Shown: piece by piece, positions 1 to 11,039 of the stretch | How the letters are laid out: each line of letters opens with the position of its first letter | Position numbering within the stretch: position 1 is the stretch's first letter | Source: an uncultured Actinomycetes bacterium | GTDB lineage: Bacteria; Actinomycetota; Acidimicrobiia; Acidimicrobiales; RAAP-2 | NCBI GenBank assembly: GCA_903875425.1 | Contig: CAIQWC010000021.1 | Span: forward strand, 1-43,639 | DNA length: 43,639 nucleotides | Reading direction: 5' to 3' | Notes under the pieces: model-generated | The model's database searches: none | What the model was told of the DNA's origin: nothing | The model's input: the letters and a program-made list of their open reading frames with translations, nothing else | Position numbers and translations under genes: made by a program

Positions 1-198
1 AATAACCATGTGACCTTTGGGCTGCACTCTCCCCACCTGTGCATTGGCGCCCACCTCGCGCGCCTTGAGCTTCGTGTGCTCTTCGAAGAACTCTTGCCCC
101 ACGTCAACGATATTGAGTTCGCAGCACCGCCTGCTCGGCTGCGGTCGAACTTTATTAGTGGTTTGAAGTCCATGCCCGTTACCATTGACTGGAAATGA
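1..198 (+). CDS. Cytochrome P450, C-terminal fragment (cut by window edge)
   Basis: The reading frame is open from base 1, so this is the last 65 codons of a longer gene. It contains the heme-thiolate loop: FG, then H-x-C-x-G (codons 12-16), followed directly by AHLARLEL, the start of the L helix in bacterial P450s, and the usual short beta-rich tail. The cysteine would be the axial heme ligand. P450s catalyse oxygen-dependent hydroxylation or dealkylation with an electron-transfer partner, which is not visible here. The loop is slightly off consensus: there is one residue more than usual between FG and the cysteine, and the second glycine is a serine. The stop overlaps the next start (ATGA), so it is translationally coupled to the C26 hydrolase. 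The substrate cannot be told. Confidence 0.85.
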   Translation, partial: NNHVTFGLHSPHLCIGAHLARLELRVLFEELLPHVNDIEFAAPPARLRSNFISGLKSMPVTIDWK

Positions 199-920
199 CC
201 GCTCCCCTCATCGGACTCTCGACTAGGCGTTGGCCCCTCGCCATGCTGGGTGCCGCCATTCCTGCGGCCTATGAGGATGGCTTCTTCGACATGGGCATTA
301 GTGACTACCCCGCAGCGGTTGCCGCCGCCGGCGGTGTCGCGGTGCATCTGAGTCGAGACGCTGACCTTGGCTTTTTGCTCGATCACCTTGATGGCCTGAT
401 CATGACAGGTGGTGCTGATGTGTCTCCTGCGCGGTATGGATCACCGCACCCCGAGTTGGTCGGGCCAACCGAACCTGAGCGTGACGCTTGGGAAGAGGCG
501 CTCTATCGCGGTGCCGTTGATCGAGACATACCGGTGCTTGGGATCTGTCGGGGCTTTCAGTTAATCAACGTGATTAACGGGGGAAGCCTGGTTGAAGACG
601 TGGCTCGAGACGAAGGCGACGGCCACCCACGCTTTGACCGCGATCGTCACGAACACGGCCACGAGGTACGAACCGTTGCGGGAACTTTGGCAAGCGAACT
701 CTACGGTGACTCAGTGTCGGTCAATAGCTTGCACCACCAGATTGTGCGTGCCGTAGCCGAAGGCTTAACTGTTTCGGGTCGCGCCCCCGACGGCAGCGTT
801 GAAATTTTAGAGCTACCTGGCAAAGAGGTGTTCTGCGTGCAGTGGCACCCAGAGTCACTCGATCACGACCCTGCATTGACGTGGCTGGTGAGTGCCGCAG
901 CGCGCTTCGCTGCTTCTTAG
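195..920 (+). CDS. Class I glutamine amidotransferase-like hydrolase, peptidase C26 (PuuD-like gamma-glutamyl amide hydrolase)
   Basis: This 241-residue protein has the C26 architecture: MTGGADVSPARYG (about 70-82), the nucleophile elbow LGICRGFQ with Cys118, SVNSLHHQ (about 175-182), and the His218/Glu220 pair in QWHPE. Family members hydrolyse gamma-glutamyl amide bonds. PuuD removes glutamate from gamma-glutamyl-GABA in the putrescine pathway, and related proteins act in amine or anilide catabolism. It starts at the ATG overlapping the P450 stop. Its stop lies in a shared TTAG with the convergent glutamine-synthetase-like gene. A ligase and a hydrolase of the same bond side by side suggest a gamma-glutamylation route for an amine. 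The substrate is inferred only from context. Confidence 0.88.
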   Translation: MTAPLIGLSTRRWPLAMLGAAIPAAYEDGFFDMGISDYPAAVAAAGGVAVHLSRDADLGFLLDHLDGLIMTGGADVSPARYGSPHPELVGPTEPERDAWEEALYRGAVDRDIPVLGICRGFQLINVINGGSLVEDVARDEGDGHPRFDRDRHEHGHEVRTVAGTLASELYGDSVSVNSLHHQIVRAVAEGLTVSGRAPDGSVEILELPGKEVFCVQWHPESLDHDPALTWLVSAAARFAAS

Positions 921-2206
921 AGGAAGGGCAAGTACTCGGTCCGCTCCCAGTCTGTGGTCGCGGCGAGGAACTTGCTCCATTCGCTGCGCTTGATGGCTAA
1001 GTGCTGAGCGACGATCTCTGAGCCAATGGCTTCGACGAGTTCGCTGTCTGCTTCCAAGGCATCGAGACCAGCCCCTAAATGCTCGGGTACGCCAATGGTC
1101 GCATCAACGTTGTCGAAGCCGTCCCCACTTTCGGGAGCACCCGGGACCATCTGGTTCACAACGCCAAGGCGAGCGGCTTGCAATACTGCGGCCATGGCGC
1201 TGTGAACGGGGGCCGCGCCATCGCTGAGTCGGTGCTCTATGCGCGTTGGCGCTCCGCGTTCGGGTGGGATGCGGATGGTCGCGCCACGGTGGTCGTGACC
1301 CCAGTTGGCCCAGTAGCCAGAGAGTTGTCCAGGACGTAAGCGACGGTAGGCGTTCACCGTTGGCGCGCAGATACCCGAGAGACCTTGGTGGTGGGCGACG
1401 AGGCCAGCAATGACCTGTTTGGCCACGGGAGCTAAGCCATCGTCGGCGCGTGGGTCGTCAAAGAGGTTGCGTCCGCTGTCGTCAGCAAAGGAGATGTTGA
1501 GGTGCAGGCCCGAACTGCCACGCTCGGTGAAGGGCTTGCCGAGGAAGGTCCACATCAAGCCGTGCTTCGCGGCGAGTTCGCGAGCGAGCAACTTGAATAA
1601 GAAGGCGTCGTCGGCGGCTTTGAGCGCCCAGTCGTACTCCAAGGTGAACTCGAACTGGCTCTCGTCATACTCAGAGTTAATTGCCTCTATGGGAAGTCCG
1701 GCGGCTTCGGCGCTACGCCAGAGCTCGTCGATCATGCCTCGAGGATCCACGGCTGGGCCGGTGCCGTAGACGTAGGCACCAGGTGTTGAAATCGGCTGCC
1801 AGCCGCCGCGGCCATCGGGCTCGAGCAAGAAGGCTTCAAGTTCGATGCCAACCTTGGGTTGGTATCCCAAGCTCGTGAGATCGTCAATGGCGCGGCGAAG
1901 CGCATGACGGGGGGAGACGGCGACGGGTTCGCCGAGACGCATTAGGTCGGCGATGACGATGCCGGTGTTGTCTTCCCAACCGGGGCGCATGGTCACGGGA
2001 TCAAAGACAGCATCCATGTCGGGGAGGCCTTCGAAGAACATTGATCCTGGGGTTCCCGGCGTCATGGTGCGGTCAAAGCCCAGGGCCCAGGTTCCCGTGC
2101 AGTGTCGAGCACCACGTTCAATGAGTCGCATGGGCACGTACTTGCCTCGAGCAAGGCCCAAGTGGTCTGGCCACAGGACACGAATACGGTCGTAAGAGGT
2201 GTTCAC
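917..2206 (-). CDS. Glutamine synthetase family protein (gamma-glutamylamide ligase, PuuA/GlnA3-like)
   Basis: The protein has 429 residues from the chosen GTG start. Family signatures in order are YDRIRVLWPDHLGLARGKYVP at the N-terminus, the metal-binding IELEAFLL (about 119-126), NSEYDESQFEFTL, SGLHLNIS, NAYRRLRPGQLSGYWANWG and the arginine/ATP segment with IEHRLSDGAAPVH. Assimilatory GlnA is usually a little longer and regulated by adenylylation. The companion C26 hydrolase and catabolic setting favour a ligase joining glutamate to an amine. A GGGGG ribosome site 7 bases upstream supports GTG at 2206. An in-frame TTG at 2260 would add 18 residues without family similarity. It follows marR on the same strand and is probably in one transcript. 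Confidence 0.85.
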   Translation of the reverse strand: MNTSYDRIRVLWPDHLGLARGKYVPMRLIERGARHCTGTWALGFDRTMTPGTPGSMFFEGLPDMDAVFDPVTMRPGWEDNTGIVIADLMRLGEPVAVSPRHALRRAIDDLTSLGYQPKVGIELEAFLLEPDGRGGWQPISTPGAYVYGTGPAVDPRGMIDELWRSAEAAGLPIEAINSEYDESQFEFTLEYDWALKAADDAFLFKLLARELAAKHGLMWTFLGKPFTERGSSGLHLNISFADDSGRNLFDDPRADDGLAPVAKQVIAGLVAHHQGLSGICAPTVNAYRRLRPGQLSGYWANWGHDHRGATIRIPPERGAPTRIEHRLSDGAAPVHSAMAAVLQAARLGVVNQMVPGAPESGDGFDNVDATIGVPEHLGAGLDALEADSELVEAIGSEIVAQHLAIKRSEWSKFLAATTDWERTEYLPFL

Positions 2207-2225: not shown

Positions 2226-2264
2226 TTAGTGACTGAGATTGAGAAGTCGTTCGTACCCAAACAT
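2226..2264 (-). CDS. Possible 12-codon leader peptide ahead of the GS-like gene
   Basis: An AGGAGG motif (2274-2279 on the minus strand) sits 9 bases before an ATG at 2264. The frame reads MFGYERLLNLSH and then TAA. It lies between the marR stop and the GTG of the GS-like gene, out of frame with the latter. This is the best ribosome site in the gap, yet it serves no long frame. It could be a regulatory upstream ORF, or a remnant of an earlier longer start. It is too short to judge by coding statistics. Confidence 0.3.
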   Translation of the reverse strand: MFGYERLLNLSH

Positions 2265-2284
2265 ATTTGTAGACCTCCTAGGTG

Positions 2285-2815
2285 TCAACTACTGCCCTGC
2301 TCCAAGGCTGCTACTTGGGCCGTAACTTTGCGAAGCAAGGTGGCGAGCTGTTCTTGTTCACTCAGGCTCAGCGCAGCGGTTACCAGACTCTCATGGGCAT
2401 TGAATTCAGGGAAGGTGTCTTTGATGACCTTGGTTCCCTTCGCGGTGAGCTTGACTAGGACCAAGCGCCCATCTTCGGGGTGACTAGAGCGTTTCACCAG
2501 TCCTCGCTGCTCGAGGGTCTTCAGCACGCCGGTGAGCGTTCCCTTTGTCGATCCCGTCTCTTGGGCGATGTGGCGGGTCTCTTGTTCGCCCCAGATCCAC
2601 AGCACCCACAAGACGGTGAAGGCGGCCCAGGAGAGGTCGTGTTCGGCAAGCACCGTTGACTCCATGTGACTTCTCACCGTGGTGGCGGCCCGGTAAATAT
2701 TAGAAACTGCTGCCATGGCCGAAAAGTCAAAGGATTGGCCATCGAGTCTGGCGCGAATATCGGCTTCTGCCTTGGTGATCTCGGCAGACTTCGAGCTAGC
2801 AAGGCGGCGACTCAT
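2285..2815 (-). CDS. MarR family transcriptional regulator
   Basis: The 176-residue protein has a winged helix-turn-helix core: LSWAAFTVLWVLWIWGEQETRHIAQETGSTKGTLTGVLKTLEQRGLVKR, then the wing HPEDGRLVLVKLTAKG. Flanking N- and C-terminal helices would form the dimer interface. MarR proteins are dimeric repressors, or occasionally activators, released by phenolic or other aromatic ligands, which fits the adjacent aromatic ring-cleavage operon transcribed divergently. The start ATG at 2815 has no ribosome site but lies 6 bases after TAGCAT, suggesting leaderless translation. The likely target is the 20-bp palindrome at 2885-2904, with a near copy at 8695-8714. HpaR (4-hydroxyphenylacetate) is the functional analogue I would compare first. 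The ligand is not known. Confidence 0.9.
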   Translation of the reverse strand: MSRRLASSKSAEITKAEADIRARLDGQSFDFSAMAAVSNIYRAATTVRSHMESTVLAEHDLSWAAFTVLWVLWIWGEQETRHIAQETGSTKGTLTGVLKTLEQRGLVKRSSHPEDGRLVLVKLTAKGTKVIKDTFPEFNAHESLVTAALSLSEQEQLATLLRKVTAQVAALEQGSS

Positions 2816-2827: not shown

Positions 2828-2884
2828 GGAGGTGTGCCGGCGATGAGCGGCAAGAATGGGTTGCGCTGGCCCTTGTCAGCAATT

Positions 2885-2904
2885 ATCGTTTGTATCCTAA
2901 CGAT
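2885..2904 (+). promoter_or_regulatory. Palindromic operator upstream of the meta-cleavage operon
   Basis: ATCGTTTGTATCCTAACGAT is an imperfect 20-bp palindrome (8 of 10 half-site positions pair) lying 12 bases before the FAH-gene start. It overlaps the possible -10 TATCCT (2893-2898), with a TTGTCA at 2873-2878 as a poorly spaced -35. Seventeen of 20 bases recur at 8695-8714 before the permease gene. The size and symmetry suit a MarR dimer, and the marR gene is divergent from this site. Repressor binding here would block RNA polymerase. Confidence 0.7.
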
Positions 2905-2916
2905 CTGGGGAGATTC

Positions 2917-3816
2917 ATGGCTAGCGAAATCCGACGCATTCTCTTGGACGGCGTTGCCACGAAGGTGGATCGTCACGGCAACGACCTCGTCGCCGCCGAT
3001 GGTCGACGTATCGGCGTCGACGATGCCATCCACCTTCCTCCGGTGCTGCCGAGCAAGATTCTGTGCTGCCACCTCAACCACATCAGTAGGGTTCGTGAAT
3101 TTGGGACCACCTTGCCCCCAGCGCCCACCTACTTTCACAAGCCCATCTCTTCGCTCAACGCCCATGGCGCAGCCATCGTGCGTCCCTCGAACTGCAAGTG
3201 GTTGAACTTTGAAGGCGAAGTCGCCATTGTGATTGGCAAGACGGCTAAATCGATTGACTACGAAGAAGCCGGCGACTACATCGCTGGCTACAGCGTGGCT
3301 AATGACTATGGCCTCCACGACTTTCGAGACACCGACGCAGGATCCATGCTTCGGGTCAAAGGTGCTGACACCCTCTGTCCTGTTGGCCCAGGACTCGTCT
3401 CCAATTGGGATTTTCGAGATAAGGCAATGAAGACCTACGTCAACGGTGAACTCAAGCAGGACGGATCCACCGAGGAGATGGCCTGGGACATGCACTACCT
3501 CGTGGCGGATCTGGCTCGGCTCATCACCTTGGAGCCAGGCGACATCATCTTGTCGGGTACCCCAGCTATTTCGCGCTCAGTACAACCTGGCGACGTCGTT
3601 TCCGTTGAGGTCGAAGGTCTTGGCACCTTGACCAATCACATTGTGGAGGGCCCGACGCCAGTATCGAAGCGTTTCGGTGCTCAGCCCACCGAAACGGACG
3701 AGGTGCTGTCGACGGCCATGGGTGGCGACTGGCCCGATCGAGGCAAGCGCATCCCAGGATCTACTCCTCGCGACCAGTTACCCATGCCCGAAATTCGTCC
3801 TCGCTGGGAGCGCTAG
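2917..3816 (+). CDS. Fumarylacetoacetate hydrolase family protein (HpaG/HpcE-like isomerase/decarboxylase or hydrolase)
   Basis: The protein has 299 residues. The ATG at 2917 is chosen because GGGGAG lies 4 bases upstream; an in-frame TTG at 2890 lies inside the operator. The FAH core is visible: KILCCHLNH, then FHKPISSL, the metal ligands Glu99 and Glu101 in NFEGEVA, Asp130 in ANDYGLHDF, KGADTLCPVGP, and GDIILSGTP near 230. The family cleaves or isomerises C-C bonds in keto-acids, including the tricarboxylate decarboxylase and isomerase steps after homoprotocatechuate ring cleavage. It is first in an operon with the aldehyde dehydrogenase (TAGATG junction) and the extradiol dioxygenase. Which of the two reactions it performs cannot be read from sequence. 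Confidence 0.88.
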   Translation: MASEIRRILLDGVATKVDRHGNDLVAADGRRIGVDDAIHLPPVLPSKILCCHLNHISRVREFGTTLPPAPTYFHKPISSLNAHGAAIVRPSNCKWLNFEGEVAIVIGKTAKSIDYEEAGDYIAGYSVANDYGLHDFRDTDAGSMLRVKGADTLCPVGPGLVSNWDFRDKAMKTYVNGELKQDGSTEEMAWDMHYLVADLARLITLEPGDIILSGTPAISRSVQPGDVVSVEVEGLGTLTNHIVEGPTPVSKRFGAQPTETDEVLSTAMGGDWPDRGKRIPGSTPRDQLPMPEIRPRWER

Positions 3817-5292
3817 ATGGTCGAACACGCTCGCGTCGACGTTGCCGGTTCTCTCGTATCGGTTGACCACTTCATTAACGGAGTGCGCGTGGCCTCGGAA
3901 GCTACCTTTGAAGACCGCTCGCCCCTCGATTGGAACTGGCTACTCGCCAAGGTATCTCGAGGCGATGCTGGCACTGCTGAGCTTGCCGTCAGTGCAGCTG
4001 TTGAAGCCTTCCCCGCTTGGGCGGCACTGAGCCCTACCGAGCGTGGTGACTACCTGCGTCGCTTGGCCGCCTTGATTGATGAACGCCAAGAACAGATCGC
4101 CTTGGTCGAGTGCGCCGACATGGCCATGTTGGAAGCATCGCTTCGCCTTCGAGTCATTGCCAGAGGTGCTCGTAACTTCCGGGCCTATGCCGAACTCGCT
4201 GAGCAGTTCGACGGCCGTCACTGGGAGTCAAACGGCACAGATAACCGCATTCAGCGCATGCCAGCGGGTCCGACGGTGGTCATTACCCCGTGGAATGCAC
4301 CGTTCATGTTGTCGACGTGGAAAACCGCACCGGCCTTAGCCGCTGGCAACACCGTGATCTTGAAGCCCGCGGAATGGTCGCCCTTGAGTTGCTCCATGCT
4401 CGCTGATCTCGTCGCTGAAGCTGGCTTTCCCCCGGGCGTGTTCAACATCGTTCAGGGTATTGGTGAAGAGATTGGCGCCGCCCTCGTCGCCGACCCTCGC
4501 ATTCGTCGCGTGAGTTTCACCGGCTCGCCAGAGACCGGTCGCATCATCGGCGAGGCTGTTGCTCGCAACCTCACGCCCTTCACCGCCGAGCTCGGTGGCA
4601 AGGGCCCCCTCATGGTGTTCGCGGATGCGGACCTCGATGCAGCGGCCAAGGCAGCGGCCAACATGTACGACGATTCAGGTCAAGTGTGCTTAGCGGGGAC
4701 GCGCATCTTGGTGGAATCTTCTCTTCGAGATGAGTTCCTCGACAAGATGCGCAGCTTTGTCGACGCCCACGTCTTGGGCGATTCGAGAGAAGCCACCACC
4801 ACCATTTCGCCCATGATCCACCCGGTACACCTCGCAAGCGTCGAGGGATTTGTCGACCGCGCGCGTGAGCATGGCGACACTATTGTCTTTGGTGGACGGC
4901 GCTGGAAAGAAGATGGCCTGTGGTACGAGCCCACCTTGATTAGTCCGAAATCTAATGATTCAGAAGTGGTGCAGCGCGAAATATTTGGACCGGTACTGAC
5001 CTTCCAAACGTTTGAGACCGAAGACGAAGCGATCGCTCTGGCAAATTCAACGGCCTATGGCTTATCGGGCATCATTTGGACCACCAGCCAAGAGCGAGCG
5101 CACAGAGTTGGTAGTGCACTGCGTGCGGGGACCGTATGGGTCAACTGCTTCTTAGTTCGCGACCTCACTGCCCCCTTCGGTGGCTTTGGGATCAGCGGTA
5201 TTGGCCGTGAAGGTGGCGACTACGCCCTCGACTTCTATAGCGATCTCAAGACCTTGCAGATCAAGGAACACACGACGAAAGAAGGCCCATGA
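3817..5292 (+). CDS. NAD(P)-dependent aldehyde dehydrogenase, probably 5-carboxymethyl-2-hydroxymuconate semialdehyde dehydrogenase (HpaE-like)
   Basis: This 491-residue enzyme is full length for the ALDH superfamily. It shows ITPWNAPFML, the cofactor segment ILKPAEWSPLS, the FTGSPETGR loop, the catalytic Glu258 in ELGGKGP, the nucleophile Cys291 in GQVCLAGTR, and the C-terminal GGDYALDFYSDLKTLQIK typical of the HpaE/HpcC branch. It would oxidise the semialdehyde made by the downstream extradiol dioxygenase to the dicarboxylate. It begins immediately after the FAH stop, and its own stop overlaps the dioxygenase start (ATGATG), so expression is coupled. The N-terminal about 30 residues are less conserved. 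A 2-hydroxymuconic or betaine-type aldehyde role is possible, but the neighbours favour the meta-cleavage step. Confidence 0.88.
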   Translation: MVEHARVDVAGSLVSVDHFINGVRVASEATFEDRSPLDWNWLLAKVSRGDAGTAELAVSAAVEAFPAWAALSPTERGDYLRRLAALIDERQEQIALVECADMAMLEASLRLRVIARGARNFRAYAELAEQFDGRHWESNGTDNRIQRMPAGPTVVITPWNAPFMLSTWKTAPALAAGNTVILKPAEWSPLSCSMLADLVAEAGFPPGVFNIVQGIGEEIGAALVADPRIRRVSFTGSPETGRIIGEAVARNLTPFTAELGGKGPLMVFADADLDAAAKAAANMYDDSGQVCLAGTRILVESSLRDEFLDKMRSFVDAHVLGDSREATTTISPMIHPVHLASVEGFVDRAREHGDTIVFGGRRWKEDGLWYEPTLISPKSNDSEVVQREIFGPVLTFQTFETEDEAIALANSTAYGLSGIIWTTSQERAHRVGSALRAGTVWVNCFLVRDLTAPFGGFGISGIGREGGDYALDFYSDLKTLQIKEHTTKEGP

Positions 5293-6170
5293 TGGGAGAC
5301 ATCGTTGGAGCAGCACTCGTCGCTCACGTCCCGACCATCGTGTTGCCCGAAGCGATTCGCCTCGAGCTCAACGAGGGCAAGGAAATTAGCTTGGTTCCTG
5401 GGCTTCACCGGCTACGCGAAGAGTACCTAGCCCCCTTACAACCCGACGTGATTATCGTTCTCGACTCGCACTGGTACACCACGGTTGAAACCGTGGTCTC
5501 TTCGGCGGATCGACGCAAGGGATTCTTTACCAGCTCAGAACTTCCCCGTGGCATGTCGAGCGTGCCCTACGACATGCCTGGCGATCGAGCCTTAGCCGAA
5601 GCTATCGCCGCAGAAGCTGAGGATATCGAGGCCTGTTGGATTACTCCCATTGACAACGAACACCTCCACCCCGAATACGCCACCATCAACTTGTTGGAGT
5701 TCCTCCAAGGCGACGAAGCCTGGATTTCAATTTCTAGTTTGCAGACCGGCGATCCGCTCGACTTTCACAATGTGGGGCTCGCCATAGCGCGCGCCGTGGC
5801 CAAGACTGATCGACGGGTGGTGTTGCTCGCATCGGGGGCTATGAGCCACACCTTTTGGGGCGTGCGTGAACTTCGCCAGCACGAATCATCTGATCCCTCC
5901 AACATCACACCTCGCGGTGCTGTCGAGGCCGATGCGCAAGTTCTGGATGCTTGGTATCGAGGCGACCACGCCTGGGTGATTGACCATATGGACGCCTACG
6001 CGCAGTTTCGTCCCGAAGCTCGCTTTGCCCACTACCTCACCATGGCATCCGCCCTTGGTGGCCGCGAATGCCGAGCCGTGGGCAGACCCTTCTCGGAATA
6101 TGAGAATTCCATCGGTACCGCCCAAATCCACGTAGCCTTTGATCGTCCCTCCGACGGTTGGACGAACTGA
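5289..6170 (+). CDS. Class III extradiol ring-cleavage dioxygenase, homoprotocatechuate 2,3-dioxygenase-like (HpaD/HpcB)
   Basis: The protein is 293 residues, LigB/class III fold. The N-terminal GAALVAHVPTIVLPEAIR, the metal/substrate segment VIIVLDSHWYTTVE (about 57-70), the conserved NEHLHPEYATI, LASGAMSHTFWG (about 182-193) and the C-terminal SEYENSIGTAQIHVAF match 3,4-dihydroxyphenylacetate 2,3-dioxygenases. These use non-heme Fe(II) and O2 to cleave the catecholic ring next to the hydroxyl pair, yielding the semialdehyde for the preceding gene's product. Two ATGs (5289, 5292) overlap the upstream stop; either may serve. The exact ring substrate (homoprotocatechuate or a substituted catechol) is inferred from similarity and operon partners. 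Confidence 0.85.
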   Translation: MMGDIVGAALVAHVPTIVLPEAIRLELNEGKEISLVPGLHRLREEYLAPLQPDVIIVLDSHWYTTVETVVSSADRRKGFFTSSELPRGMSSVPYDMPGDRALAEAIAAEAEDIEACWITPIDNEHLHPEYATINLLEFLQGDEAWISISSLQTGDPLDFHNVGLAIARAVAKTDRRVVLLASGAMSHTFWGVRELRQHESSDPSNITPRGAVEADAQVLDAWYRGDHAWVIDHMDAYAQFRPEARFAHYLTMASALGGRECRAVGRPFSEYENSIGTAQIHVAFDRPSDGWTN

Positions 6171-6182
6171 GAAAGGACCATC

Positions 6183-6989
6183 GTGCTCTCAGGTTTCCTC
6201 TTTCCCCGAACCGAATCGGGTCGCAGTTCACTCTTGCCCCCTCCGCCGTGGAACTACTCAGGCGATTTACTCACCATTGAGTACCGCACCGATCCCGCCG
6301 CCATTCGTCGCGTACTCCCTGAGCCCCTGAGCTTGGTCAATGAGGATGAAGACCCGGGGGCCGTAGCGGTGATCTTTGCTGATTGGCAATCAAGTGCCGA
6401 TGATCAGCGCGAATTCACCGATCCCATTCGCATGCAATACAAAGAAGCCTTTGTCGTGGTGCGCTGTCGCTACGCCGGGCAGATATTCTCCCGCTGCATC
6501 TATATCTGGGTGGATACCGACTTTGCGATCGCCCGAGGAAACCTTCAGGGCTATCCCAAGAAGCTCGGATCGATTTACCAAAGCCGACCGGTATCGGTTG
6601 GTCGCGGTGGTCCGCGCTTGGAAAAAGGTGGCCTTTTCGCCGGCACCCTCGCGGCCTATGACCGTCGCTTAATCACGGCCAGCGTCAGGCTCGAAGAGCA
6701 AGTCGAAACCGGTGGCTTCGTCAATGGCCACGCCATGTTGCACCATCGCTGGATGCCTAAAATTGAACTCGATGGTGAAGACACCATCTCTGAGTTGGTG
6801 ACCATGCGTGGCGTCAACGTCGAGCTGGGGCCCATCTGGTCAGGAACACCGAGCATTGAATTAGGTCGGTCACCGGTTGAGGAACTCGAGGACTTGGCCC
6901 CCATCGAGATGCTTGGTGGCTACTGGCAGAGCGTTGGTACCACCTTTGCCGGGGGCACCACCCTCGAGTCGCGCGTTCCTTCGCGTTAG
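6183..6989 (+). CDS. Acetoacetate decarboxylase (ADC) family protein
   Basis: The 268-residue protein contains NLQGYPKKLGSIYQ. The Lys126-Lys127 pair corresponds to the catalytic Schiff-base lysine and the lysine that lowers its pKa in acetoacetate decarboxylase. FSRCIYIWVDTDFAIARG just before it is also typical. The GTG start is supported by GAAAGGA 6-12 bases upstream. It is the last gene of the FAH-ALDH-dioxygenase operon, 12 bases after the dioxygenase. ADC-fold proteins decarboxylate, hydrate or aldol-condense keto acids, so it might replace a missing step (isomerase, hydratase or decarboxylase) of the meta-cleavage pathway. That is inference. Its stop shares TTAG with the convergent amidotransferase gene. 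Confidence 0.82.
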   Translation: MLSGFLFPRTESGRSSLLPPPPWNYSGDLLTIEYRTDPAAIRRVLPEPLSLVNEDEDPGAVAVIFADWQSSADDQREFTDPIRMQYKEAFVVVRCRYAGQIFSRCIYIWVDTDFAIARGNLQGYPKKLGSIYQSRPVSVGRGGPRLEKGGLFAGTLAAYDRRLITASVRLEEQVETGGFVNGHAMLHHRWMPKIELDGEDTISELVTMRGVNVELGPIWSGTPSIELGRSPVEELEDLAPIEMLGGYWQSVGTTFAGGTTLESRVPSR

Positions 6990-7660
6990 CGAGTGGCGAT
7001 GTCTTCGATAAAGAAGTCGACCAGGGTGGCCACGTTAGCTACTGCTTGGTCGTATCGCTCAGAGGTCTCTGCCAGTACGGCATCGACGTTGAGCCCGAAG
7101 TTGCGCATCTCGTCTTCGCCGCCATTGGGAAGCCAACGCTCGAGTTGGCCTCGCTCCACCTCGGGGTGGAACTGTACGCCGAGGTTGCGTCGAATGGAAA
7201 AGGCCTGTACGCAAAGTTCGTTGGTGGCCAAGATTTCCATTTGCGCAGAAGGCAGGCATCGGTCGCCGTGGAACTGAAACCACTTATCGCTGGCGATCCC
7301 AGGGTTCGTCGATTCGATTTGGTACCAGCCAATTTCATAGCTACCAGAAGACTCAACGACCCCACCATGGGCGACGCACAGTGCTTGCGAACCGAAGCAG
7401 ATCCCAAGAACAGCGATGCCGAGCTCATCGGCTCGACGGAGAAAAGCAAGTTCCGAGTCGATCCACTGCCCAACGCTGTCTCGGTCATAGACCGACCATT
7501 TAGAACCCAGCACCATGGCGAAGTCGTAGGTGGCAACATCGGGAATCGGTCCATCACGAAGCACGTTGTGCACGTCGATCACCGCGCCGCGTCGGGTAAA
7601 TTCCTCGCCAACGAGACCGGGGTCGTCTTCTCGGTGATGTCGCAACGCAATGACCCGCAC
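6986..7660 (-). CDS. Class I glutamine amidotransferase domain protein (GMP synthase-like GATase family)
   Basis: This stand-alone 224-residue GATase domain has the nucleophile Cys88 in LGICFGSQALC and His165/Glu167 in VQFHPEVE. It is not the PuuD type, as the HHQ segment is replaced by WFQFHGDRCLP. It lacks the ATP-pyrophosphatase half of GMP synthase. The start is GTG at 7660, with AGGAGG 6 bases upstream. Longer in-frame starts to 7867 would run through the divergent oxidoreductase gene and are rejected. Stand-alone members hydrolyse glutamine or gamma-glutamyl conjugates. In this island it could be a second deglutamylase, but the substrate is unknown. Confidence 0.82.
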   Translation of the reverse strand: MRVIALRHHREDDPGLVGEEFTRRGAVIDVHNVLRDGPIPDVATYDFAMVLGSKWSVYDRDSVGQWIDSELAFLRRADELGIAVLGICFGSQALCVAHGGVVESSGSYEIGWYQIESTNPGIASDKWFQFHGDRCLPSAQMEILATNELCVQAFSIRRNLGVQFHPEVERGQLERWLPNGGEDEMRNFGLNVDAVLAETSERYDQAVANVATLVDFFIEDIATR

Positions 7661-7686
7661 GGCCAACCTCCTCGTAGATGGAGATG

Positions 7687-7692
7687 ATCCTA
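7687..7692 (-). promoter_or_regulatory. Candidate -10 of the GATase gene
   Basis: TAGGAT on the minus strand lies 26 bases before the GTG at 7660, leaving room for a short leader with the AGGAGG ribosome site. It sits in the 61-bp divergent gap with the luciferase-like gene. Confidence 0.35.
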
Positions 7693-7721
7693 GTGGGAGG
7701 GATTCAAGATTGGCTGGGAGA

Positions 7722-8672
7722 ATGGTGGCACCGATGACGCTAAAGATGATTCTGCTCTTAACGGAAAACGAAACCATGGTCCCTACGCCAGATGTCGGTG
7801 ACCTCGTCGACATGGCAGTGGTGGCCGAAGCCGCTGGCTTTGATGCCGTCATGATTTCAGAGCACATCGTGCTCGGTCCAAGCGCGAACGAGATGGGCCT
7901 AGCTGAGAATCCTCGCGACTACGCCTTGCCGGGCAATCAAGACCCGGCCACGATCTGGCCAAGCCAACTCGTGCTGGCCAGCGCCGTGGCCCAGGCGACC
8001 ACCTCGCTTCGGGTCATACTGGGAGCAAATATTTCTCCACTTCACCACCCTTTAATTTTGGCGAAAGATTTTGGAACCCTCGATACCTTGAGCCGCGGAC
8101 GCTTGATCGTGCAACCGACGGTGAGTTGGCACCGAGATGAATACGACGCGCTGGGGGTTGACTTTACAAAGCGCGGAGCGATCTTGGACGAGCAGTTAGA
8201 GATCTTGACCTTGGCGTGGACCGCGGGATCGGGGAATTCCTTCTCCTTCCATGGGCAACACTTTGACTTCGGCGACGTATGGATGGAGCCACAGCCCTTC
8301 ACGCCAGGGGGCCCACCTCTGTGGTTCGGAGGATCCAGCCTGCACGGCTCGCTGCTTCGACGCCTCATTCGCTATGGATCGGGTTGGAACCACCTAGGCG
8401 CAATCAGCGATGAGGACATGGTCACACTCATCCAAGCGCTCGCCACGCAAGGTCGATCCTTGGCTGAGATTGAGCTCGTCGGGGGGACCAGGGGCCAGTT
8501 TTCAAGTCCTGATAGCTGCTCACCGCTCGAGCCAGTCTTGGCTACGATCCCCGCTCAAGTAGCCCGCGGATTTGGATCCATTTGCATCAAGCCCGCGCAA
8601 TTTATAGATCAGCTCGGTGAATTTAGGGCTTTTTGCGACAAAGTAATGGAGTTTTCGGCCTCTTTAAAGTAA
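7722..8672 (+). CDS. Luciferase-like monooxygenase family (LLM) F420- or FMN-dependent oxidoreductase
   Basis: A 316-residue TIM-barrel protein of the bacterial luciferase-like superfamily: DMAVVAEAAGFDAVMISEHIVLG near the N-terminus, TTSLRVILGANISPLHHPLILAKDFGTLDTLSRGRLIVQPTVSWHRDEYDALGVDF in the middle, then a flavin-binding segment PPLWFGGSS. In actinobacteria this type often uses coenzyme F420. Some members are FMN monooxygenases that attack C-S, C-N or carbonyl bonds. The start is ambiguous: ATG 7722, GTG 7725 and ATG 7734 are in frame, with GGGAG at 7716-7720 fitting the last two better. It is divergent from the GATase gene. A role in the aromatic/amine pathway is inferred from location only. 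Confidence 0.8.
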   Translation: MVAPMTLKMILLLTENETMVPTPDVGDLVDMAVVAEAAGFDAVMISEHIVLGPSANEMGLAENPRDYALPGNQDPATIWPSQLVLASAVAQATTSLRVILGANISPLHHPLILAKDFGTLDTLSRGRLIVQPTVSWHRDEYDALGVDFTKRGAILDEQLEILTLAWTAGSGNSFSFHGQHFDFGDVWMEPQPFTPGGPPLWFGGSSLHGSLLRRLIRYGSGWNHLGAISDEDMVTLIQALATQGRSLAEIELVGGTRGQFSSPDSCSPLEPVLATIPAQVARGFGSICIKPAQFIDQLGEFRAFCDKVMEFSASLK

Positions 8673-8685
8673 ACGAAACAAATCC

Positions 8686-8714
8686 TTGCTTTACATCGTT
8701 TGGATCCCTACGAT
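8686..8714 (+). promoter_or_regulatory. Permease promoter
   Basis: TTGCTT (8686-8691), a 17-base spacer, then TACGAT (8709-8714). The -10 is the right half of the palindromic operator, so an operator-bound protein would occlude the promoter. The start codon is 45 bases downstream. Confidence 0.5.
8695..8714 (+). promoter_or_regulatory. Second copy of the palindromic operator, before the APC permease
   Basis: ATCGTTTGGATCCCTACGAT differs at 3 of 20 bases from the site at 2885-2904. It is the only other copy I found in the window. It links the permease-SDR operon to the ring-cleavage operon as one regulon, with MarR (2285-2815) the best candidate binder. Confidence 0.7.
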
Positions 8715-8759
8715 CAAATATCAAGTACGCGTCGCTGACGCGCTGATGGGGGGAATGAT

Positions 8760-10202
8760 ATGGAAAACGACGGAGGAATCCTTCTCGGAGAAGGCAAGGG
8801 CAAGCTCACCACGATTGACGCCATAGGTCAGTCAATGGCAGCGGGCCCTGTGTTCTCAACGGCCATTATCGGCGCGTTCATGTACTCGTTCTGCCCGGGC
8901 GCTTCGCCGGCAACGATGATCTTGACCACCATTGGCATCTTGGGGCTTGGGCTCGTCATCGCAGGCTTCGCCAAGAAGTTCTCAGGTGCGGGTGCGCTCT
9001 ATGAGTACCTGGCGCACTCGATTGGCAAGCGTGCCGGCGTCATGGGTGCTGGTGCGTACTGGCTTGCCTACACCGCCTTCGGCGTTTCGATTCCGATCAT
9101 CGCCGGTTGTGTCACGGCTCCGTTTTGCGCTGCGCACCTCGGGTTTAACCCACCTTGGTGGGCCTGCACCCTCGTCATTACTGCCATCATTGCGGCCTTG
9201 AACCTGATTGGTGTTCGCATCTCGGTCAAGACGCAGCTGTCGGTTCTGTCGCTATCGCTCATCCCCTTCGCTATTTTGTGCATCGTCGTCATCGCCAAGG
9301 GTGGCGCTACGGGTAACACCTTTGCCGTATTCAACCCGGGCCACGTCGAAGCCGGTGGATCAGTTTTCAAGGGCATGTTGTTTGCAATTTTGATGTTCGT
9401 TGGTTTCGAACTCTCAGCATCGCTTGGTGAAGAGACTGCTGAGCCGAAGAAGTCAATTCCTCGTGCGGTGATCGCCACGGTCCTCATTGTCGGTGTTGTC
9501 TACACCGTCACCCAGTACGTCGGCTCCATCGGCTCTGGTGGACCCAACAAGGTCCCCTTTGACTTTGGTGTCATGGCTCAGGTCTACGTTGGTAACTGGC
9601 TCTCGATCTTGATAAACCTCGGGATTATCTTTGACATCATCGGCATCGGTATTGGCTTCTTCTCTGGTTGCAGCCGGGTTGGATTCGCCCTTGCTCGCGA
9701 CGGCATGCTGCCGGCGCCGTTGGCCAAAGTCTCCAAGCGTCGGGTGCCTGCAGTCAGCTTGTGGGTCACCATCGCCCTGACCGTGCTTGGAACCGTCATT
9801 ACCGGCCTTGCCTTCCACTGGGACAACGGTATGAACTCGAGCATTGGCCTGATCAATGCAGCGTGGGGCTACGAAGTGCTCTCCGCTATGGGAACCATCA
9901 TCGTGGCCCTCGTCTACGCCACCTTGTGCATCGCGGGCTTCTTCATGTTCATCAAGGACAAGATGTGGCTGACGGTGCTTGGCGCAGTACTGGGCTTTGC
10001 CGTGGCTGTTGGTGCCGTCACTGCCCAGTTCCTGCCAGGCTTGGCGCCATCGGGCACCGCTGCGGTGGGCCGTACGATGGGAATTATTGGCGTTGGTGTC
10101 GTGATCGTGTGGATTATCTACCACGTCGTGCGAAACCCGGACCGTGTCGAAGCAGCTGGCGAGCACGCCCTGAAGCATGAGATGACGGAAGTCAATCTCT
10201 AA
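8760..10202 (+). CDS. APC superfamily amino acid/amine permease
   Basis: This 480-residue protein has about 12 hydrophobic segments. The first membrane segment begins TTIDAIGQSMAAGPVFST, the APC pattern with small residues in unwound helix 1. A later segment FVGFELSASLGEETAEPKKSIPRAV is the characteristic APC loop after helix 6. It should import an amino acid, amine or related solute by proton or sodium symport across the cytoplasmic membrane. The start ATG at 8760 follows a G-run ribosome site (8747-8753). It is preceded by the shared palindromic operator and followed 24 bases later by an SDR gene. Its co-regulation with ring cleavage suggests it imports the aromatic amine or amino acid that feeds that pathway. 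Confidence 0.9.
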   Translation: MENDGGILLGEGKGKLTTIDAIGQSMAAGPVFSTAIIGAFMYSFCPGASPATMILTTIGILGLGLVIAGFAKKFSGAGALYEYLAHSIGKRAGVMGAGAYWLAYTAFGVSIPIIAGCVTAPFCAAHLGFNPPWWACTLVITAIIAALNLIGVRISVKTQLSVLSLSLIPFAILCIVVIAKGGATGNTFAVFNPGHVEAGGSVFKGMLFAILMFVGFELSASLGEETAEPKKSIPRAVIATVLIVGVVYTVTQYVGSIGSGGPNKVPFDFGVMAQVYVGNWLSILINLGIIFDIIGIGIGFFSGCSRVGFALARDGMLPAPLAKVSKRRVPAVSLWVTIALTVLGTVITGLAFHWDNGMNSSIGLINAAWGYEVLSAMGTIIVALVYATLCIAGFFMFIKDKMWLTVLGAVLGFAVAVGAVTAQFLPGLAPSGTAAVGRTMGIIGVGVVIVWIIYHVVRNPDRVEAAGEHALKHEMTEVNL

Positions 10203-10226: not shown

Positions 10227-11039
10227 ATGACTGATAACGAAGCTGCTGCGAAGGTAGCAATCGTTACCGGCGGTGCTACCGGCATCGGTGAAGCAGCAGT
10301 AGCTGGCCTCGCCGGTGCCGGTTGGCACGTCTGGGCACTGGGGCGACGCCGAAGCGCGCTGGATGCGCTTGAAGCTTCCACCAGCGCCAAGGGTCTTGTC
10401 TGTGACGTCAGCGTGGTGAGCGAGGTTGAATCTGCGGTCGCTCACATCCTCGACATTGAGGGTCGCCTCGATGGCCTGGTGCTCAACGCCGGCACCATGG
10501 TGGAAGGCACCTTGGGCGATACCAGTGTTGAACAGTGGGACCAGGCCATTGGCATCAACCTCACGGGTGCGTACCTTGTTGCGCATGCCTGTCTCGAAGC
10601 GCTTACGGAATCGAAAGGTTCTGTCGTGAGCATTTCTTCAGTGGCGGGCTTACGCGCTGCTGGAGGGCTGGCCGCGTATTCGATTTCCAAGGCTGGCCTC
10701 TTGATGCTCAGCCACAGCATCGCCGTTGACTATGGACCTCGAGGCGTGCGCTCCAATGTGGTGTGTCCTGGCTGGACCCGCTCAGAGATGGCCGATGCGG
10801 AAATGGCAGCCTTCGCTGAGATGGCCGGTGGGGGAGTAGAAGATGCTTACGAAGAGGTAACCCGCCTCGTTCCTCAGCGACGCCCTGGGACCTCCGCAGA
10901 GGTAGCTCAAGCAATTATCTGGCTGCTCTCCGAGGCCGCAAGTTATGTCAACGGAGCCACGCTCAGCGTCGATGGTGGCTTGGGCATCCTTGAAGTTGGC
11001 ACCATCGGCTATGACTTCACCGTTGCGCCACGCGCTTAA
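10227..11039 (+). CDS. Short-chain dehydrogenase/reductase (SDR)
   Basis: This 270-residue classical SDR has the Rossmann motif TGGATGIG (14-21), LNAG (87-90), catalytic Ser137 with Tyr151-x-x-x-Lys155 in AYSISKAG, and a PGW segment after the substrate loop. It would oxidise or reduce a hydroxyl/carbonyl group with NAD(P). It is 24 bases after the permease and likely in the same transcript, hence part of the operator-controlled regulon. The C-terminal tail after VDGGLGILE is a few residues longer than in most relatives. Its stop overlaps the convergent ABM-like gene by TTAA. The substrate cannot be told from sequence. Confidence 0.87.
   Translation: MTDNEAAAKVAIVTGGATGIGEAAVAGLAGAGWHVWALGRRRSALDALEASTSAKGLVCDVSVVSEVESAVAHILDIEGRLDGLVLNAGTMVEGTLGDTSVEQWDQAIGINLTGAYLVAHACLEALTESKGSVVSISSVAGLRAAGGLAAYSISKAGLLMLSHSIAVDYGPRGVRSNVVCPGWTRSEMADAEMAAFAEMAGGGVEDAYEEVTRLVPQRRPGTSAEVAQAIIWLLSEAASYVNGATLSVDGGLGILEVGTIGYDFTVAPRA

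Follow-up and report, generated by a model that had tools for sequence, protein, structure and literature searches.

A palindromic operator shared by ring-cleavage, permease and accompanying promoters, and its probable MarR-family binder, in uncultured Acidimicrobiales

The control of aromatic catabolism by a MarR-family protein and its operator is a kind of system already known. PcaV of Streptomyces coelicolor, an actinobacterial protein whose MarR fold is described together with its natural ligand (4fht), targets the beta-ketoadipate pathway, a ring-cleavage route other than the one considered here. HpaR, or HpcR, belongs to the hpa-meta operon of E. coli, Yersinia and Acinetobacter; in the available part of the Yersinia study (PMC7180172), its operator reads TTAA-N4-TTAA, with half-sites 4 bp apart and one site centred at -8. 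Here, we analysed a stretch of 43,639 nucleotides, hereafter the window, from an uncultured Actinomycetes bacterium of the order Acidimicrobiales (GenBank assembly GCA_903875425.1, contig CAIQWC010000021.1), in which a 20-bp palindrome stands before a ring-cleavage operon and again before a permease gene. The MarR-family protein encoded beside the first palindrome very probably represses four transcription units through this shared operator and is relieved by a ligand.

The locus resembles the HpaR system in the MarR fold of its regulator and the HpaG/HpaE/HpaD-type operon next to it. Half-sites 4 bp apart and a site near the -10 element are also common to both, as far as the accessible sections of the Yersinia report extend (PMC7180172), and HpaR is the best NCBIfam match of the window MarR. 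On the other hand, the window MarR scores 53.7 bits against an equivalog cut-off of 121.2 (TIGR02337), and its half-site core is GTTYG with ATC/GAT flanks, in place of the TTAA given in the same part of that report (PMC7180172). In addition, the window genome contains at least four operators, and the regulon adds glutamine-synthetase-like (GS-like), PuuD-like and cytochrome P450 genes. Given the score below the cut-off and the other half-site, we rejected the protein as an HpaR equivalog. The adjoining HpaG-, HpaE- and HpaD-like genes also each fall under their curated equivalog cut-offs. Sequence similarity between the window MarR and PcaV is limited to an E value of 1.1e-5.

The shared operator and its candidate binder

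The central elements, in window coordinates, are as follows, with matrix scores in bits.

2885-2904, no strand: operator 1, the strongest, ATCGTTTGTATCCTAACGAT, between the MarR gene and the operon that begins with a fumarylacetoacetate hydrolase (FAH) family gene, 12 bp before the FAH start; score 23.9
8695-8714, no strand: operator 2, ATCGTTTGGATCCCTACGAT, before the APC permease and short-chain dehydrogenase (SDR) genes, 45 bp before the permease start; score 15.6
2246-2265, no strand: operator 3, weaker, GTCGTTCGTACCCAAACATA, before the GS-like gene, 39 bp from the chosen start codon; score 7.6
2285-2815, minus strand: MarR-family regulator of 176 aa, the proposed binder, from profile match and model

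When re-read in the window letters, the two palindromes described in the first-pass annotation were found at their given places, 5' of the FAH operon and of the permease, the gene sets named there. They have 17 of 20 bases in common, and both are dyad-symmetric, as claimed, with 8 of 10 pairs complementary in each. At up to 3 mismatches from the shared pattern, 2885 and 8695 are the sole matches within the window, and 100 dinucleotide-preserving shuffles of the window yielded none; two such palindromes are far beyond chance. The same search of the whole genome (1.61 Mb in 46 contigs, 97.7% complete) added one place, C6:35277, with 3 mismatches. Again with up to 3 mismatches, a looser dyad pattern matched at 19 places and its reversed control at 11. 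Three of the former belong to the regulon, and the remaining 16 are indistinguishable from background. The genome holds no crowd of random copies, and the regulon promoters alone stand out.

The absence of a third copy, reported in the same annotation, did not hold. We trained a matrix on 35 distinct FAH-promoter sites of genus g21, none of them from the window's genus, and scanned the window together with 19 kb of a sister genome (G027). In the window, 2885 (23.9 bits) was followed by 8695 (15.6) and 2246 (7.6), and the fourth place reached only 4.2, while the top four places in the sister genome were exactly the P450, FAH, APC and GS promoters. Operator 3, which a looser dyad consensus also brings out, has the counterpart ATCGTTCGGGTCCAAACATA there, amid flanks that diverge, and operator 2 the counterpart ATCGTTGGGTTACATACGAT. 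The fourth operator, TTCGTTTGGAGCCAAATGAT, with 2 mismatches, lies on another contig of the window's genome (C27:1239-1258), before the P450 gene that runs into the window with its final 198 bases, and is likewise conserved, all four operators recurring in the sister genome. The idea of one regulon on a shared operator therefore stands, whereas its extent grows from two operators to at least four, with gamma-glutamylation and P450 genes included. The predicted operator consensus is ATCRTTYR-N4-YRAACGAY, the half-site core being GTTYG with ATC/GAT flanks.

The window is a whole contig, and its first 141 bases repeat the start of C27 (G000:C27, L108) in reverse, marking an assembly break inside the P450 gene. 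By eye, C27 also carries an acyl-CoA-dehydrogenase-like gene and the start of an aldehyde dehydrogenase (ALDH) gene resembling PuuC.

Putative promoters were assigned to the three window units.

2861-2889, plus strand: putative FAH operon promoter, TTGCGC-N17-TATCGT, by reading; its -10 overlaps the left half of operator 1
8686-8714, plus strand: putative permease promoter, TTGCTT-N17-TACGAT, by reading; its -10 is the right end of operator 2
2260-2288, minus strand: putative GS-like promoter, TTGACA-N17-TATGTT, from the scanner with 10 of 12 matches; its -10 lies inside operator 3

At all three, the operator overlaps the putative -10 hexamer. The sister genome retains every hexamer of these promoters except for one permease -35 base (TTGCTT vs TTGCAT). 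In the two-genome footprints, the operator halves are kept at all four units while the flanks diverge, and nearly all of the -35 and -10 letters are kept at the GS, FAH and APC promoters. A clear marR promoter with an operator on its -10 was sought by eye in the window and none was seen, so that auto-repression of marR in the window genus is plausible at most.

The candidate binder matched PF01047 with 52.0 bits, as compared to a gathering score of 24.6, which identifies a MarR winged-helix domain. Its AlphaFold model (pLDDT 91.1) came closest to 7el3, an HpaR-DNA complex, at Z 18.0 and with an rmsd of 1.4 over 135 residues; ligand-bound PcaV (4fht, Z 17.5) and other MarR proteins lie within 1 Z of this value and count as tied. 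Among the matches listed, 50 structural neighbours showed Z scores of 16.1-18.0 over 128-164 residues, many of them titled MarR-family regulators. By its modelled fold the protein is a member of the MarR family, and the neighbours support the predicted fold and DNA-binding mode, not a ligand. The residues K91-V97 (KGTLTGV), which start the model's helix 91-103, taken as the recognition helix, and D115 and R117 of the wing are invariant in 24 MarR sequences. A putative dyad-symmetric operator of about 16-20 bp in the divergent or own promoter is indicated by both sequence and conservation.

Conservation of the operator and its association with marR

A MarR ortholog (E value 1e-20 or better) was detected in 59 of 172 family genomes, the window's own included. 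Of these 59 genomes, 38 contain the exact motif ATCRTTNRNNNNYNAACGAY, as do 10 of the 113 others (Fisher p 3e-14 over the 172 genomes, among which related ones are not independent). With reverse-strand duplicates of one place counted once, the motif marks 52 distinct places, as compared to 4 hits in the 172 genomes for the reversed control; at 29 of the 52, a MarR ortholog is found on that contig no more than 6 kb away.

In the sister genome, the gene order is unchanged and both palindromes are present. The operons of genus g21, fetched whole, run FAH-ALDH-HpaD-ADC-MarR (ADC, acetoacetate-decarboxylase family), with MarR last and FAH divergent from the GS-like gene, and a 20-mer such as ATCATTTAGGTACAAACGAT is situated directly 5' of the FAH ribosome-binding site. 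When compared with ATCRTTYRNNNNYRAACGAY, the FAH promoters of 47 of 47 readable clusters lie within 1 mismatch (25 with 0, 22 with 1), and the reversed pattern has at least 3 mismatches in all of them. These clusters, one row each, belong to the MarR-bearing genomes of g1 and g21 (g13 excluded); in some of these genomes, MarR and FAH sit on different contigs. FAH rows were counted if the alignment started by residue 8, the identity reached 60% and no fewer than 50 bases lay upstream, criteria that leave out genome G065. The clusters include two of genome G077, whose two cluster copies (L036, L156) sit on separate contigs and each have a MarR gene and operator-like sites of their own.

Genus g13 shows a third gene order, and its FAH promoter is mostly without a site (7, 7 and 2 mismatches in the three clusters read). 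There, marR and ALDH are neighbours, and the core GTTYG-N4-CRAAC lies between marR and the ALDH start in all 4 clusters; the sole other core in the four g13 stretches (66 kb together), L101:6529, precedes a P450 homolog at 6567. Across these arrangements, the site keeps to its transcription units while the marR gene moves.

Across 39 family loci, 40 sites with at most 1 mismatch were found, against 0 for the reversed pattern, and 29 further loci gave 31 against 0. Six duplicate loci had been removed by a 200-base test, and L122 (same contig as G091:C58) and other same-class loci stayed among the 29. Of 44 distinct rows of P450 promoters, 29 show a site with at most 3 mismatches, as compared to 1 for the control. 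P450 and PuuD are divergent wherever a fetched g21 cluster holds both genes. For the permease, the site is present in both window-genus genomes (2 mismatches) and, in weaker form, in two g21 orthologs (2 and 3 mismatches). Relatives with the FAH site often also have sites before P450/PuuD, GS and APC. As a rule, no site precedes the LLM-type oxidoreductase, SDR, ADC or in-operon MarR genes in the family clusters read, the exceptions, with 2 mismatches each, being the ADC gene of L051, which is divergent, and the MarR gene of L026.

Beyond the family, MarR relatives were collected from named genomes (36 loci), among them those of Streptomyces silaceus, S. longisporoflavus, Embleya hyalina and Yinghuangia, with 50-54% identity. 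In 31 of the 36 loci, one site or more with up to 2 mismatches is present; at this threshold none was found in L118, L121, L127, L147 and L149. The sites of Streptomycetaceae precede ADC, MarR, ALDH or GS, as exemplified by ATCGTTTGAGACCAAACGAT in L142. The S. longisporoflavus cluster combines a GS-like ligase, a P450, a PuuD-like hydrolase, a PuuC-like aldehyde dehydrogenase and ring-cleavage genes.

The first-pass annotation had named the MarR protein as the binder and conservation in the upstream regions of related clusters as a check on the operator. The palindrome is indeed kept at every readable FAH promoter of the MarR-bearing g1 and g21 genomes, and the proposed binder is well supported by the way the motif tracks the marR gene and by its conservation across gene orders.

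Proposed repression and its alternatives

In the mechanism that we favour, a MarR homodimer would bind the consensus with one winged helix per half-site and cover the -10/start region of the regulon promoters, sterically blocking RNA polymerase. The units under its control would be (a) the FAH-ALDH-HpaD-ADC ring-cleavage operon with the divergent marR, (b) the APC permease and SDR genes, (c) the GS-like gene and (d) the P450 and PuuD genes. A substrate or intermediate of the aromatic pathway would enter the MarR pocket and free the dimer, turning on the four units together. The overlap of the window operators with putative -10 elements makes steric repression in the manner of HpaR, lifted by a ligand of the pathway, the best model.

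Several observations weigh against this picture. The consensus promoter scanner reports only the GS promoter, and the FAH and APC assignments are not among its results. The GS site is itself weak: chance alone would yield 0.9 places per 43.6 kb with a score of at least 8, so that its case rests on its place, on the TTGACA-N17-TATGTT promoter and on its conservation amid diverging flanks. Ten MarR-bearing genomes had no readable FAH start and are outside the 47-cluster count, and the 15 P450-promoter misses include all 11 rows with identities of 46% or less. The exact motif was also found at L164:1480 (G090) and L165:4689 (G163), away from cluster genes and in MarR-less genomes. We did not accept these two as regulon members, as there is no MarR ortholog at E 1e-20 and no cluster-gene homolog in the surrounding 8-9 kb; the full-consensus matches may be due to chance or to another MarR protein. 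In the genomes without a detected MarR, three of the seven readable FAH promoters keep the site (G073, 65% complete; G133, 79%; G121, 96%) and four do not (G064, G145, G141 and G055); L152, L153, L154 and L155 are clusters in MarR-less genomes lacking the FAH-promoter operator. In G121 (L151), the FAH operator is intact while the best MarR-like match reaches only E 1.5e-4. This genome is a true exception or has an assembly gap, and a different regulator may have taken over. In G141 (L152), the FAH site is lost, and a 1-mismatch palindrome is kept between P450 and PuuD.

These last two genomes, one keeping its operator and the other one of its sites, speak for a reading in which the palindrome serves another, unlinked regulator that co-evolved with the pathway, the adjacent MarR doing something else. 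This explanation is quite improbable, given that the motif tracks marR across the family, adjoins it in g1 and g13 and, in g21, accompanies a marR located within the controlled operon, and that the site geometry fits MarR dimers. Furthermore, the MarR ortholog is absent from G145 (97% complete), G065 (86%) and G064 (64%), and the cluster stretches fetched from them, 12 kb in the case of G065, are free of sites with up to 2 mismatches. Binding of MarR as an activator or dual regulator, and not as a simple steric repressor, has a precedent in Yersinia HpaR, which activates a second promoter from a distant site according to the part of the report available (PMC7180172). However, at each of the three window promoters the site overlaps the putative -10, so that a protein bound there would obstruct the polymerase, and we regard such a role as unlikely. 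Selection of the repeats for DNA or RNA structure, as a terminator, mRNA hairpin, restriction site or recombination site, would suit the FAH site, which is placed immediately upstream of the ribosome-binding site and could be part of the transcript. The variable centre between nearly fixed half-sites, the few copies outside one regulon and the position of the window-genus permease, P450 and GS sites, 35-45 bp before the start codon and away from the ribosome-binding site, leave this explanation with hardly any credit. A ligand-relieved MarR repressor thus remains our preferred reading.

Genes of the regulon and their proposed pathway

The other features of the locus are listed below.

1-198, plus strand: 3' end of the cytochrome P450 gene; the remainder and its operator are on C27
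195-920, plus strand: PuuD-like gamma-glutamyl hydrolase (peptidase C26), family profile match
917-2206, minus strand: glutamine-synthetase-like ligase; GTG start at 2206 chosen from the sister-genome alignment
2917-3816, plus strand: FAH-family protein, HpaG-like, profile match
3817-5292, plus strand: ALDH, HpaE-like, profile match
5289-6170, plus strand: LigB-type extradiol dioxygenase, HpaD-like, profile match
6183-6989, plus strand: ADC-family protein, MppR-like, profile match
6986-7660, minus strand: glutamine-amidotransferase-like protein, labelled by eye from the sequence; without an operator in front
7734-8672, plus strand: LLM-class (luciferase-like, F420-type) oxidoreductase, profile match; without an operator in front
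8760-10202, plus strand: APC-family amino acid/polyamine-type permease, profile match
10227-11039, plus strand: SDR, downstream of the permease, profile match

The longest open reading frame of the GS-like gene starts at 2260 and would enclose operator 3. The lack of an operator of their own at the divergent amidotransferase-like and LLM genes is in line with the generally site-free LLM-type promoters of the family. Operator-like sites precede homologs of the amidotransferase-like gene at L126:8967 and L145:16119. Between operator 2 and the permease start, a hairpin at 8727-8743 was reported on the minus strand (1 vs 0.1 in shuffles); it could be a leader structure, and by eye a similar short inverted repeat seems to be present in the sister genome. 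We discarded a terminator-like hairpin at 2865-2880, because one such hairpin is within chance expectation (mean of 0.7 in shuffles, standard deviation 0.9).

Clusters for the catabolism of aniline and 1-naphthylamine go by the names tdn or atd and npa. In the available part of one account, they encode a GS-like gamma-glutamyl ligase, an amidotransferase-like enzyme and a ring oxygenase, followed by ring cleavage (PMC11335346). The window shares with them, at the family level, the GS-like ligase and the amidotransferase-like enzyme, but has a P450 and HpaD-type cleavage where that part of the account describes a Rieske dioxygenase, and the term MarR has 0 occurrences in its text (PMC11335346). 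None of the ten window proteins scanned is a Rieske dioxygenase, and no search for one was made elsewhere in the genome. Given the combination of a gamma-glutamylation-like set with homoprotocatechuate-type ring cleavage, an aromatic amine is the best guess for the substrate. The joint presence of gamma-glutamylation, P450, HpaD/HpaE/HpaG-like ring cleavage and permease genes suggests aromatic-amine catabolism, for which the substrate may be aniline-like or tyramine/dopamine-like. A more specific and tentative proposal, which we put forward as possible though rather doubtful, is a previously undescribed actinobacterial regulon under one MarR sensor, in which an imported aromatic amine would be gamma-glutamylated by the GS-like ligase, oxidised by the P450, freed by the PuuD-like hydrolase and ring-cleaved by the HpaD-type enzyme, with the ADC-family enzyme replacing the HpaH/HpaI end steps.

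We found no published description of the operator consensus, the regulon width or the enzyme combination, in a partial coverage of the literature that is no proof of novelty. A search for the first eight operator letters together with MarR gave, among the matches listed, unrelated papers only.

A palindrome first seen in two copies thus becomes a defined operator consensus with a probable binder and a regulon of at least four promoters, which spans metagenome-assembled genomes of Acidimicrobiales to cultured Streptomyces and Embleya. Regulon membership links a GS-like ligase, a PuuD-like hydrolase, a P450, extradiol cleavage and a permease, whose joint role was previously not evident, so that the substrate may be sought through the ligands of one purified repressor.

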